Origin: a virus
Length of the DNA stretch: 64,000 nt
Virus record (IMG/VR): IMGVR_UViG_3300023179_000041
Span: 42,279 to 106,278 of that record
Reading direction: 5' to 3' (one strand)
This document shows positions 30,388 through 48,014 of the stretch, piece by piece. The translations under genes and the position numbers were made by a program. The notes beneath the pieces were generated by a model. It was not told where the DNA came from. It made no database searches and saw only the letters and a list, made by a program, of their open reading frames with translations. Each line of letters begins with the position of its first letter. Positions within the stretch are counted from its first letter, which is position 1.

Positions 30388-30563
30388 TTCCAACAAGAGA
30401 TGCTCCAGAAATCGTGGACGTAGCGGTAAAGCAGCATTTGCGCAAACTGACAAAGCCAACCTCAATCCATGGTATTTCTTCTGCACTCCGATACAGTCGT
30501 GAGGTCATTTCGCAGTCATTGGTCAGAATAGCAACAGAATTAGTGAGGAAAGATGTCAATTAA
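30384..30563 (+). CDS. small basic protein
   Basis: 59 aa from a GTG (GTGA overlap with the previous stop): MIPTRDAPEIVDVAVKQHLR ... ending RKDVN. Basic and helical; could be a small DNA-binding protein (ISSALRYSREVISQSLVRIA resembles a helix-turn-helix pair). It overlaps the next gene start by 11 bp. Confidence 0.55.
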   Translation: MIPTRDAPEIVDVAVKQHLRKLTKPTSIHGISSALRYSREVISQSLVRIATELVRKDVN

Positions 30564-31218
30564 AATCATGGACTGGGTATTCGAGAACTCCAAGGCTCAA
30601 GGCATCGAGCGATTGATTCTGCTCGTCATTGCTGACCATTGCAACAGCGAAGGCGAGCATGCATTCCCAAGAATCAGCGTGATTGCTAAGCGCGCCAATG
30701 TTTCCGAGAGAACCGTAAAACGCAAACTACAAGATTTGGTTGAACTTGGAGAACTAAAAGTTGTTAAGCGGCACGGAACGTCGAACCTATATAAAATTGT
30801 CACCAGAAAAAATAAAACTTCTTCAAACGAAATAGTTCCCATCGAGCCAAAGGTGCAAAAAAGCAAAAAGCGAGAACGCAATCCGATTTGGGACACGCTC
30901 CTTGAAGTATGTGGAGTCAACCCGAACAAAGTCAATTCAAACGAGGCATCTCGATATGGTCGAATGGTCAGGATTCTAAATGAATCTGATGCGACCCCAG
31001 AAGATATTCGCGTTCGTGCAGAAATATATAAACAAAAATTTTCCTACGCCACAATGACCCCAACGGCATTAGTGAATCGCTGGTCTGAATGTGACCCAGC
31101 AAGTCAACCGATGAACGGCTTGAACGGCGTTGTGCCGAAAGGCTGGAACGCTATTAAGGCAGCACGCGAACAGCGGCTATCTCAAGCCGTAACAGTGAAA
31201 GGTGAATTGAATGTCTGA
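30553..31218 (+). CDS. replication-type helix-turn-helix protein (HTH_36/DnaD-like)
   Basis: 221 aa with SD GAGGAAAG. Residues 1-80 are a winged helix: I-E-R-L-I-L-L-V-I-A-D-H-C-N-S-E-G-E-H-A-F-P-R-I-S-V-I-A-K-R-A-N-V-S-E-R-T-V-K-R, in two parts, typical of the replication initiator N-domains of phages and plasmids. A basic linker (about 90-113) leads to a helical C-terminal domain resembling DnaD-type helicase loaders (PTALVNRWSECDP). With the genes at 31211 and 31501 it may form the initiation module. Confidence 0.75.
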   Translation: MSIKIMDWVFENSKAQGIERLILLVIADHCNSEGEHAFPRISVIAKRANVSERTVKRKLQDLVELGELKVVKRHGTSNLYKIVTRKNKTSSNEIVPIEPKVQKSKKRERNPIWDTLLEVCGVNPNKVNSNEASRYGRMVRILNESDATPEDIRVRAEIYKQKFSYATMTPTALVNRWSECDPASQPMNGLNGVVPKGWNAIKAAREQRLSQAVTVKGELNV

Positions 31219-31871: not shown

Positions 31872-33191
31872 ATGTCGGACAACATTCAAGTAAATACAGA
31901 GATAGTTGAAATCACCAGTCTTAAGCCATACCCAAAGAACCCGCGTCGCGGTGATGTTGAGGCAATCGCACAATCACTCAAAGTGAATGGACAGTACAAA
32001 CCAATCGTCGTGAATAAGCGCGACAACACCATTCTTGCCGGTAACCACACATGGAGAGCGGCACGAAGCCTGGGCTGGACACACATTGCAGTTTCGTTTG
32101 TCGATGTAGACGATTACGGTGCGCAAAAAATTGTTCTGGCTGACAATCGCACGTCCGATATGTCTTCCTATGACGATTCAAAACTCCTTGACCTTCTGCA
32201 ATCGTTGTCGACGCTTGATGGAACAGGATTCCAGCAGGTTGACATCGACCAACTTGAAGCACTAATTAGCGGAGACGGAGAATTTGAAGCGCCTAACCGA
32301 GATAGAACCGGCGCGGTTGGCAAGGAAATTCGTGTATGTGTTGGAAGTTACAGAATTCTTGTTGATGACGATGTTTACTCTGATTGGGCAAATGATATTG
32401 CTACAAAAGTTGGAGATGATGACAAGGTTCTAGTCGAACTCAAGAAGCGTTTACGTCTTTCAGATGTAACTCATTTACCACCAGAAAAAACAAAGCCAAA
32501 GCGACAAAAACGAAATATCGACAGGCAGCAAATGCACTCTGTGATGCTTTCTACGGAAAATGTCGACATCAATAGCGTCTTCCCATACCCGCTCAATGCA
32601 CGACAGGGCGATATCGGCCTGATTGCTGAATCTTTAAGCAAGAACGGTCAGTTCCGGCCAATTGTTGTCAACAAACGGGACAATTCAATCTTGGTTGGTA
32701 ATCACACGTGGAAGGCAGCCAAGATGTTGGGGTGGAAACAAATTGCGGCAACCTTTGTTGATTGCGATGAGGAGGAGGCAGCAAAGATTGTTCTTGTGGA
32801 CAACAAGACTGCAGACCTTGGGTCTTATGACCATGTTGAACTAGCAGAAATTCTTCAAACACTTCCAGTGTTTGACGGAACCGGATATACAGGAGATGAC
32901 TTAGACGACCTGATGCATGAGGTCGCCGGTTGGGGTATCAAAGAAAAACCAGTCAAAGAAAAGAACGATAAGCCCAGAAACGTTACGGCGATTATCGGAA
33001 AGTGGGAGTTCAAGATGGCGCCTAACTTTTATGAAGATTGGGAAGAGGCAATGTTTGTTGAGTTCGGATACTCATATGAAGAGGTTTGCGCTGGAATTGT
33101 TGGTCTTTTGGACATTCAAAACGATGCATGGGTTTCTACCCGTCAGCGACGTTCAAAGAAGGTCAGCCCGCGTAGGGCAAACGGAGAATAA
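31872..33191 (+). CDS. tandem ParB/Srx-domain protein
   Basis: 439 aa with two copies of the ParB/sulfiredoxin-like domain. Copy 1 (about 8-135): P-Y-P-K-N-P-R-R-G-D, V-N-G-Q-Y-K-P-I-V-V-N-K-R-D-N-T-I-L-A-G-N-H-T-W. Copy 2 (about 230-350): P-Y-P-L-N-A-R-Q-G-D, K-N-G-Q-F-R-P-I-V-V-N-K-R-D-N-S-I-L-V-G-N-H-T-W. Both keep the G-N-H nucleotide-site motif, while copy 2 has lost the P-R of N-P-R. ParB/Srx folds bind or hydrolyse nucleoside triphosphates; phage versions often accompany DNA methyltransferases. The stop overlaps the next ATG (TAATG). Confidence 0.85.
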   Translation: MSDNIQVNTEIVEITSLKPYPKNPRRGDVEAIAQSLKVNGQYKPIVVNKRDNTILAGNHTWRAARSLGWTHIAVSFVDVDDYGAQKIVLADNRTSDMSSYDDSKLLDLLQSLSTLDGTGFQQVDIDQLEALISGDGEFEAPNRDRTGAVGKEIRVCVGSYRILVDDDVYSDWANDIATKVGDDDKVLVELKKRLRLSDVTHLPPEKTKPKRQKRNIDRQQMHSVMLSTENVDINSVFPYPLNARQGDIGLIAESLSKNGQFRPIVVNKRDNSILVGNHTWKAAKMLGWKQIAATFVDCDEEEAAKIVLVDNKTADLGSYDHVELAEILQTLPVFDGTGYTGDDLDDLMHEVAGWGIKEKPVKEKNDKPRNVTAIIGKWEFKMAPNFYEDWEEAMFVEFGYSYEEVCAGIVGLLDIQNDAWVSTRQRRSKKVSPRRANGE

Positions 33192-34738
33192 TGAAGCCCG
33201 TTCTTGCATCAGTAACAGACTTAAGGCCATCTGCATACAATCCGCGCAAAGCGGATGCAGAGAGGCTTGAGTTGGTTGAATTATCGCTGCGCAAGTTCGG
33301 TTGGCTATTACCTATCTACGCAGACAAGGATGGCGAGATTCTCAGTGGTCACCAGCGCCACATGGTCGCCACAAATATGGGAGCCACGATGGTCCCCGTC
33401 GTGCGTGTTCCTTCGTTCAAGATTGAGCGACGCATGGGCATCAACGTCCTTTATAACCGTGCTACGAACGACATGTACAAAACTCGTTCAACCACAGAAC
33501 TCAAAGATGACCTAATGGCAAAACTTGGAGACCTTGAGAAAATCAAGATGCTCCCAGACATCCCTGTTGATTCTCTAGAATGGTATCCAGTACTTAAGAC
33601 CAAGCCGGTTTCCACTCTTAGGCTCATACAACTGAACGGAAAATGGCCGGAACAGCACGCAGTTGCTATGGCAGCGCAGTTAAAAACTAACGGGCTTCCC
33701 CAGATGCCGGTCATCTGCACCACTGACTACAAGGTTCTCAATGGCCTTGCCAGGCTGACATACGCAGTGTCAGTAAATGAAGACTTTGTTCAGACCGTAC
33801 AGGTAGCGCCAGACATTGCCGAAGAGGTAACAGCAATGCTGAACCTTCTGACGATGGATTACAACATTCAAGAACGATATGAAGACCTGCTTCGATACAA
33901 CTCGTTTCGTCGAAAAAACCAACGGGTTCAGATTCTCACACCAACATTCTTGGAAGATTTTCTCCGCCACTTCATTAACTCTGGCAATCGTAACGGCGCC
34001 TTTGAACTCGATAACCCGCGCCATGTAGAACTATGGAAAGAGTATTACGGCACTCACGTCATTGACTTTGGTGCTGGTCTATGCGACAAGACTCAGATTC
34101 TCCGAAACATGGGAGTGGATGCAGTTGAATTTGAGCCTTTCTTCCTTGCCAAAGACAACGAAACAATCGATACGGACGCCGCTCGCGAACTTACGTCAAA
34201 ATTCCTTGCCCGCGTTGCGGACGGTACGGAGTGGGACAGTATCTTTATCGCTTCGGTATTCAACAGCATCCCATTCCTGCAAGACCGCAAACACGTGATT
34301 GCCATTGTCGCTTCCTTGTCGTCCCCACATACAAAACTCCACACAGCCGCTATATGCACGGAATCAGACCGTTGGTTCAATCACACTCGCGGAGATTTAA
34401 AGAAGGGACACGACACGTCAAGCAACGGATTTGCCCTTGATTACGAGCCACGCATCATCATCTCCGATATCGCTCTAAAGCCAAAGGTCCAGAAGTACCA
34501 TACCGAAACCGAGTTCAGCGAACTCATTAGGCACGGCTACCGGCATGTAGATACGTTCTTGACCGCCAAAAACGGGCTTGTTCAAGCCGTTGGTTCCAAT
34601 GCCCGACAAATTGGGGTCGACGAACTACGTGTTGCAATTGAGTTTGAGTTCAATGTCCCACATCCAGAAGGCCGTCGTCTTGGAATGGTGGAGGAAGCAA
34701 AAGCGGCGTTTTCCAAGAGGCTTGGGATTCAATTATGA
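33191..34738 (+). CDS. ParB/Srx domain fused to methyltransferase-like domain
   Basis: 515 aa. Residues about 1-110 are a ParB/Srx domain (A-Y-N-P-R-K-A-D, L-S-L-R-K-F-G-W-L-L-P-I-Y-A, I-L-S-G-H-Q-R-H-M-V-A). About 110-270 is a helical middle with a second degenerate version (LRLIQLNGKWPEQHAVAMA). From about 290 a Rossmann-type segment V-I-D-F-G-A-G-L-C-D-K-T-Q-I-L resembles class I methyltransferase motif I, with E-F-E-P-F-F as motif II. No D/N-P-P-Y/W/F catalytic motif is obvious, so the modified atom is unclear. It sits between a tandem ParB and a carboxy-SAM synthase homologue, with ATGA coupling to the latter. Confidence 0.75.
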   Translation: MKPVLASVTDLRPSAYNPRKADAERLELVELSLRKFGWLLPIYADKDGEILSGHQRHMVATNMGATMVPVVRVPSFKIERRMGINVLYNRATNDMYKTRSTTELKDDLMAKLGDLEKIKMLPDIPVDSLEWYPVLKTKPVSTLRLIQLNGKWPEQHAVAMAAQLKTNGLPQMPVICTTDYKVLNGLARLTYAVSVNEDFVQTVQVAPDIAEEVTAMLNLLTMDYNIQERYEDLLRYNSFRRKNQRVQILTPTFLEDFLRHFINSGNRNGAFELDNPRHVELWKEYYGTHVIDFGAGLCDKTQILRNMGVDAVEFEPFFLAKDNETIDTDAARELTSKFLARVADGTEWDSIFIASVFNSIPFLQDRKHVIAIVASLSSPHTKLHTAAICTESDRWFNHTRGDLKKGHDTSSNGFALDYEPRIIISDIALKPKVQKYHTETEFSELIRHGYRHVDTFLTAKNGLVQAVGSNARQIGVDELRVAIEFEFNVPHPEGRRLGMVEEAKAAFSKRLGIQL

Positions 34739-47053: not shown

Positions 47054-47187
47054 GGTGACAGGTTGTCACCTCCACTACATATAGTATGTGACATCCGACA
47101 CAAGTAGTGACAGGTTGTCACCCTGGGGTGTCAGGCTGTCACCCCCTAGGTGACAGGTTGTCACCCCCTAGGTGTCAGGCTGTCACC
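47054..47187. repeat. array of GGTGACA-GGT-TGTCACC palindromes
   Basis: Palindromes at 47054-47070, 47106-47122, 47127-47143, 47149-47165 and 47171-47187, plus a weak one near 47087-47102. Two variants alternate (GGTGACAGGTTGTCACC and GGTGTCAGGCTGTCACC). The last four start 21-22 bp apart, two helical turns, so bound proteins would face one side. Confidence 0.9.
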
Positions 47188-47193
47188 CGCAAA

Positions 47194-47248
47194 TATGGTA
47201 CAAATCTCGGGAAACCCTTACCCAGTAAGGGTTTGAGCCTGTACCATA
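47194..47248. repeat. nested inverted repeat (cruciform-like)
   Basis: Outer arms TATGGTACA (47194-47202) and TGTACCATA (47240-47248); inner hairpin AAACCCTTAC-CCA-GTAAGGGTTT (47212-47234), 10 bp perfect. Could be a terminator for 46363 or part of an origin/partition site. Confidence 0.8.
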
Positions 47249-47255
47249 GATATCT

Positions 47256-47292
47256 AACCGTCACTTAACCGTCACTATAACCGTCACTTAAC
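47256..47292. repeat. three direct repeats AACCGTCACT
   Basis: Copies start at 47256, 47267 and 47279 (11-12 bp spacing, one helical turn), with a fourth partial AACC. They share the GTCAC core with the palindromes upstream. Confidence 0.85.
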
Positions 47293-47323
47293 CACAAAGC
47301 GCGAGTGACCTCGCGCACAGAGG

Positions 47324-47352
47324 TTGTGGTGATGTCAAACAGTATGTATAAT
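47324..47352 (+). promoter_or_regulatory. promoter TTGTGG-17-TATAAT
   Basis: Lies 31 bp after the direct repeats; drives the ribbon-helix-helix gene, which would allow autoregulation. Confidence 0.8.
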
Positions 47353-47391
47353 GAAGATGTAATACCAACACACATAGAAAGCAGAAAAGCA

Positions 47392-47556
47392 ATGAGCAAG
47401 ACCAAGACGGCGTCAAAGCCTAAGTACCCACTCATCGCCTTCCGTCTCTCGGAGGATATGGCGCGTCAAATCGCGACCGCATCCAAAGAGGACAAGGTAA
47501 GCAAGTCGGCAGTCATCAAGTCCGCTATTGAGGCTTACCTCAAGAAGCGCGGATAA
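47392..47556 (+). CDS. ribbon-helix-helix DNA-binding protein
   Basis: 54 aa from ATG 47392 (start codons further upstream lie in the promoter). P-L-I-A-F-R-L-S-E-D-M-A-R-Q-I is the beta strand plus helix A, and S-K-S-A-V-I-K-S-A-I-E-A-Y-L-K-K-R helix B of a CopG/Arc-type dimer. Such proteins bind short direct or inverted repeats in arrays and control plasmid copy number or partition. The GTCAC repeats just upstream are the obvious target. Confidence 0.8.
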   Translation: MSKTKTASKPKYPLIAFRLSEDMARQIATASKEDKVSKSAVIKSAIEAYLKKRG

Positions 47557-47780: not shown

Positions 47781-48014
47781 ATGAACAACGCAATGAACAA
47801 AAAGGCACTGCTTGAAGTTGCAAGCCGAGTAAAGAGCCTGCGTGAGACCAACGGTCTCTCACAGGGTCAGTTGGCTGAGAGCGCAGGCATTGACCGCAAA
47901 ACCATCAACAGAATCGAGAACGGTCACTTCTCGCCGTCACTAGATACATTTTTCCGTATCTGCTACGCGCTTGATACCCGACCAGAAAAACTCGTGACGG
48001 GAATCAAGGTATGA
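47781..48014 (+). CDS. XRE-family helix-turn-helix regulator
   Basis: 77 aa from ATG 47781. R-V-K-S-L-R-E-T-N-G-L-S-Q-G-Q-L-A-E-S-A-G-I and R-K-T-I-N-R-I-E-N-G are the classic Cro/cI-type HTH; single domain, no effector region. It may repress its own or many of the repeated promoters. ATGA-coupled to the next gene. Confidence 0.85.
   Translation: MNNAMNKKALLEVASRVKSLRETNGLSQGQLAESAGIDRKTINRIENGHFSPSLDTFFRICYALDTRPEKLVTGIKV

Follow-up and report, generated by a model that had tools for sequence, protein, structure and literature searches.

A phased palindrome array in an environmental phage as a candidate replication-origin core for a distant O-like initiator

The window, that is, the whole 64,000-nucleotide stretch analyzed, comprised bases 42279–106278 of a 106,278-base virus record that is possibly incomplete. 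Five palindromes of the form GTGWCA-N3-TGTCAC were found at 47054–47187, four of them 21–22 bp apart (Table 1). Copies of GTGWCAGGYTGTCAC started at 47055, 47107, 47128, 47150, and 47172, with spacings of 52, 21, 22, and 22 bp, and the left half-site was GTGTC in two of the sites. When up to two mismatches were allowed, the window contained 11 strand-matches of GTGWCAGGYTGTCAC against 0.38 expected, a number reached by none of 100 shuffles, and 10 of the 11 were both strands of the five array sites. The array was unique in the 106-kb record, in which one lone two-mismatch site occurred elsewhere.

Beyond the array lay a nested inverted repeat with a perfect 9-bp outer arm pair (47194–47202 and 47240–47248) and a perfect 10-bp inner arm pair (47212–47221 and 47225–47234); a 151-nt segment containing it gave a folding z of -5.3. 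Three direct repeats followed, with TAACCGTCACT starting at 47255, 47266, and 47278 and occurring nowhere else in the window at up to one mismatch; the count of three was weakly significant by itself, being reached in 7 of 100 shuffles. The motif GTCAC was common to the iterons and the 11-bp direct repeats. A second hairpin, a putative promoter, and the genes of a ribbon-helix-helix (RHH) protein and an XRE-type protein completed the locus. A preliminary description, made by a model from the letters alone, had pointed out the 21–22-bp palindrome array with an extra copy and a degenerate one, the 9-bp/10-bp inverted repeat, the three direct repeats spaced 11–12 bp, and the 54-aa RHH protein, and each of these proved to be present. 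Between 42000 and 64000, recurring intergenic units lay between the many small genes of the window; spurious ORFs in these units carried motifs such as GTPFLGAG and VYHT..FAT..FCPCR, and the units are probably promoter/terminator cassettes.

Table 1. Features of the array locus and the initiator gene (positions in the window)
Feature	Position	Strand	Remarks
O-like replication initiator gene	30553–31218	+	phrog_1032, E 2.5e-18; phrog_391 (O-like), E 1.4e-13; HTH_36, E 3.4e-11
Putative iteron 1, GGTGACA-GGT-TGTCACC	47054–47070		Conserved in all five relatives
AT-rich near-palindrome, ACATA-TAG-TATGT, between iterons 1 and 2	47077–47089		From sequence
Degenerate palindrome, GTGAC-ATCC-GACAC = GTGACATCCGACAC	47088–47101		14 bp instead of 15
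Putative iteron 2, AGTGACA-GGT-TGTCACC	47106–47122		
Putative iteron 3, GGTGTCA-GGC-TGTCACC	47127–47143		
Putative iteron 4, GGTGACA-GGT-TGTCACC	47149–47165		
Putative iteron 5, GGTGTCA-GGC-TGTCACC	47171–47187		
Nested inverted repeat, TATGGTACA...TGTACCATA around AAACCCTTAC-CCA-GTAAGGGTTT	47194–47248		
Direct repeats TAACCGTCACT, three copies 11–12 bp apart	47255–47288		
Second hairpin, GCGCGAG-TGAC-CTCGCGC	47299–47316		Absent from the preliminary description
Putative RHH-gene promoter, TTGTGG-17-TATAAT	47324–47352	+	Inferred from sequence
Gene of 54-aa RHH (CopG-type) protein	47392–47556	+	PF01402, E 1.9e-4; PHROGs CopG/Arc-like
Gene of XRE-type HTH protein	47784–48014	+	PF01381, E 1.6e-14; syntenic in relatives

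A search with the RHH protein yielded four related contigs (L002–L005), and a search with the direct-repeat sequence a fifth record (L072). The order Api92-like gene, array, direct repeats, hairpin, RHH gene, and XRE gene was found in all five, and each had a single palindrome array. The iteron half-sites were retained in the relatives while the surrounding DNA drifted; the right half was mostly GACAC in L072. At the degenerate palindrome, the relatives varied in the center and retained the half-sites, and all of them had ACATATWGTATGT or a close variant at the near-palindrome. The nested inverted repeat was intact in the closest relatives, L002 and L003, and decayed in L004, L005, and L072, and folding of each relative indicated that the stem of the second hairpin was kept with an altered sequence. 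The TAACCGTCACT triplet was conserved, the RHH protein showed 68–93% identity across the relatives, and the TATAAT -10 element and spacing of its promoter were conserved in L002, L004, and L005. Searches of phage records with the nucleotide sequence of the array region and with the RHH protein gave no match.

We searched 2.9 million viral contigs using the palindrome GTGACAGRTTGTCACC alone and compared the matches with ORFs recognized by an O-like HMM, which was built from seed proteins chosen regardless of arrays. Among the 56 loci found, 15 had three or more sites no farther than 150 bases from the match. Four of these multi-site loci belonged to the window's own family, and in all of the others (11/11) the match lay inside an ORF recognized by the HMM. 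Outside the family, 20 of 52 matches were in O-like ORFs, which accounted for 3.9% of the bases; a wrong-frame hit is probable for one of the 20, L070. A control palindrome, scrambled but equal in composition, gave 23 matches, all of them single and none in an O-like ORF (0/23), and no arrays (Fisher p 1.8e-4 for the O-like ORF association of GTGACAGRTTGTCACC versus the control). The 20 O-like proteins formed 11 groups at 50% identity, and the array-bearing proteins tested matched Pfam HTH_36, in some cases under the curated cut-off, as well as PHROGs families for replication initiation or O-like proteins. The in-gene set and the window family had the same consensus (GTGACAGNTTGTCAC against GTGACAGATTGTCAC). 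In-gene arrays had a spacing of 21–24 bp in 29 of 35 intervals and coded for the segment that directly follows the winged helix. In most of the phages found with the palindrome array, the iterons lay within the initiator gene, in the part encoding the tether that links the DNA-binding to the C-terminal part. For about every second in-gene array, the 40 bp of lowest stability within 400 bp began no more than about 40 bp from the 3' end of the array.

Phased GTGAC/GTCAC palindromes were found in the O-like genes of Vibrio phages 1.216.O, 1.205.O, D67, and 1.110.O (L081, L082, L086, and L087). The array-bearing gene adjoined an annotated DnaB-like helicase gene in phage 1.110.O and the gene of a P-loop NTPase assigned to COG0305 in phage 1.216.O. 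The annotated features shown for the four stretches include no origin. In another contig (L016:1880-2440), the leader of an O-like gene had two perfect palindromes flanking an AT-rich stretch of approximately 85 bp, and two variant sites lay inside the gene; this layout is possibly an intermediate arrangement. A genome_contigs search with an alignment of the initiator family confirmed no relative. The spurious ORF at 47107–47268 of the window (MTGCHPGVSGCHPLGDRLSPP...), which resembles the VTGCH repeats of L023, was considered as a remnant of an initiator tether. It was not accepted as an independent line of evidence, since a VTGCH-like translation is dictated by the iteron sequence.

The array of the window lay approximately 15.8 kb from the phage's own O-like initiator gene. 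In the predicted model, this initiator consisted of a winged helix, an unstructured tether at about residues 88–106, and helices in the C-terminal part. Neither this gene nor the initiator genes of the relatives contained iterons. The initiator was 67–82% identical in four of the five related records, 15.8–18.2 kb from their only array, and the fifth record, which had no initiator, was a 59-kb fragment. Overall identity of the window initiator with the in-gene-array proteins was only about 14–29%. Foldseek gave a weak likeness of the winged helix to the plasmid RepA initiators 4pt7, 4pql, and 5kbj, with no E value at or below 0.001, and the predicted domain weakly resembled a model of a phage "replication protein O"; a sequence search of solved structures returned mostly MarR-type winged helices. 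In the alignment of array-bearing proteins, Arg53 was invariant and Arg57 nearly so, and the window initiator had both residues. Aeromonas phage AsXd-1 (L088, 1446–1560), in which position 57 is Ile, had a different type of in-gene iteron, GTGCA..TTCAC. No GTGAC array accompanied the O-like proteins that lack the Arg pair (L077, L079, L080, and L098–L100), and the pair was present without a clear GTGAC array in L083, L084, and L097. These comparisons were only suggestive of a link between R53/R57 in the recognition helix and the GTGAC type of iteron. The initiators of L098 and L099, with another recognition helix, had a KGAN-rich repetitive segment after the winged helix, which perhaps encodes a different iteron array. 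Just downstream of the window's initiator gene, at 31872–34738, were two adjacent ParB_N-domain genes, the second being a weak match; the first protein matched PHROGs families named ParB-like, nuclease, or methyltransferase. These proteins by themselves are no evidence of a partition system. A search of the record for DnaB_C gave no match, and use of the host helicase was therefore presumed.

From these sequence data, we consider it most likely, with a probability of about 0.78, that the array at 47054–47187 represents iterons for the phage's O-like initiator and would be the core of a replication origin. An origin was one of three functions offered in the preliminary description, besides a partition centromere and a master operator, and it was favored among them because the palindrome tracks O-like initiator genes across phages. 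The O-like initiator is also a better candidate than the RHH protein for binding the palindromes. In the proposed mechanism, the winged helix-turn-helix of the initiator would read GTGAC half-sites and bind as dimers, and the 21–22-bp, two-turn phasing would place several dimers on one face of the DNA. The bound dimers would wrap or bend the DNA, open DNA nearby, and recruit the replicative helicase, in a manner comparable to that of lambda O at ori-lambda. The array would have been displaced 15.8–18.2 kb downstream of the initiator gene, a direction of relocation that we infer, and kept there. Iterons that were retained but sited elsewhere are the parsimonious reading.

Two observations are the main weaknesses of the origin reading. 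No strongly AT-rich stretch directly abutted the window array, the least stable 40 bp nearby (47341–47380) lying approximately 150 bp off, across the promoter and leader of the RHH gene, and no GC-skew switch was found at the array. The absence of an AT-rich stretch directly beside the array and its distance from the initiator gene would also suit an array that the initiator binds as a control site, for titration or handcuffing, with the active origin elsewhere. This arrangement seems improbable, since the array is the only one of its kind in the record and in each relative.

The adjoining RHH gene raised further alternatives. In one of them the RHH protein would likewise bind the array, itself an origin, and compete with the initiator to limit replication. 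The RHH antitoxin PrpA offers a precedent at the iterons of plasmid pMBL6842 (PMC7848731), the RHH gene adjoined the array in all six records, and the iterons share GTCAC with the 11-bp repeats. Those repeats, however, are separate from the iterons. Direct repeats of 11 bp are a more typical RHH target than palindromes, and such competition therefore appears unlikely. The RHH protein more likely reads the 11–12-bp direct repeats rather than the palindromes, and the TAACCGTCACT repeats are predicted to be either its sites or an origin element. Bound there, it would control its own promoter or the firing of the origin; autoregulation may be supposed, as it fits the placement of the direct repeats, three copies spaced by one helical turn, ahead of the RHH promoter. 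The protein is probably a regulator, not a DNA-partition protein.

A cluster of operators, in which the RHH or XRE protein would bind the palindromes and control early genes or the lytic/lysogenic decision, was the master-operator option of the preliminary description. The position of the array spoke for this option: the RHH and XRE genes followed the array directly, both in the window and in the five relatives, and a conserved -10 element preceded the RHH gene. A palindrome of 17 bp is also of typical operator size. Recurrence of the phased palindromes in the O-like genes of unrelated phages, however, is not what an RHH/XRE operator predicts, and the sites were limited to one cluster in the record. 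No dispersal of the kind seen in L5-like stoperators was found, all five perfect sites being in that cluster with one further two-mismatch match. Searches of the record for a tyrosine integrase and a resolvase gave no match, which likewise told against the operator cluster, and we regard it as quite doubtful. The absence of these two enzymes would fit an extrachromosomal prophage with a partition centromere, where the RHH protein binds parS-like repeats in the manner of ParG, omega, or pSK41 ParR. As in RHH-type partition loci (ParA-ParG, omega, ParR), the RHH gene was beside an array of phased repeats, but no cognate ParA-type ATPase gene was found. A search for a ParA ATPase elsewhere in the genome, as the preliminary description had advised, gave no match to ParA/AAA_31 (PF13614) or CbiA (PF01656) in the whole record, whereas 14 of 14 control genomes were positive. 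Since the same array motif tracks O-like initiators and lies inside the initiator genes of unrelated phages, a centromere is very improbable.

Compared with known systems, the array most likely works like a lambda-type iteron origin, as a displaced variant of it. At ori-lambda, four inverted repeats inside the O gene are bound by O dimers, which open the A+T-rich 40 bp next to them (PMC5043065). The window similarly encoded an O-like initiator and had inverted repeats of approximately 17–19 bp about two turns apart, and, like lambda and its Stx-phage relatives (PMC5043065, PMC7466680), it had tandem inverted repeats at which dimers of the phage initiator are predicted to bind. As in lambda, related phages had the array within the initiator gene, and weak DNA often lay on its 3' side. 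Unlike ori-lambda, the window had a different iteron sequence, its family's array was outside the initiator gene at a distance of 15.8–18.2 kb, and beside the array were hairpins, direct repeats, and an RHH gene, with no strongly AT-rich stretch directly abutting it. Because iterons were looked for within the initiator gene and not found there, the array is not a strict member of the lambda type. In RepA_N plasmid and PLE satellite initiators, a DnaD-like winged-helix N-terminal domain reads repeated inverted half-sites (PMC7145576). The weak Foldseek matches liken the window initiator to these proteins with their semi-palindromic iterons, whereas its matches were HTH_36 and O-like PHROGs and did not include RepA_N. 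The PrpT/PrpA plasmid pMBL6842 likewise encodes an RHH protein on a replicon with iterons (PMC7848731), but no toxin gene was identified here, and RHH-iteron binding, known for PrpA, is hypothetical for the window. The parABS mycobacteriophages RedRock and Miko also combine repeat arrays with dedicated replication functions (PMC7157519); the window, whose host is not established, differed from them in giving no ParA match and in having 17-bp palindromes tied to an O-like initiator as its repeats.

More tentatively, the origin of this lineage, lambda-type in kind, may have parted from the initiator gene and come to lie beside an RHH gene. The result would be a replicon working in trans, in which the small RHH protein might gate transcription or the binding of the initiator at the origin, and a single iteron code, GTGAC-N5-GTCAC recognized by two arginines of the recognition helix, would be common to many unrelated phages. 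If the code were shared in this way, origins could be predicted from sequence alone. The array provides a concrete origin candidate for a group of environmental phages about which little is known. The palindrome also flags probable origins inside the initiator genes of many phages, among them cultured Vibrio phages in which these genes bear only the annotation "hypothetical protein" or "replication initiation O-like". Should the recognition-helix link hold, initiator and origin would be related by a small code that can be read. The phage family of the window also offers a natural experiment on the separation of an origin from its initiator gene.
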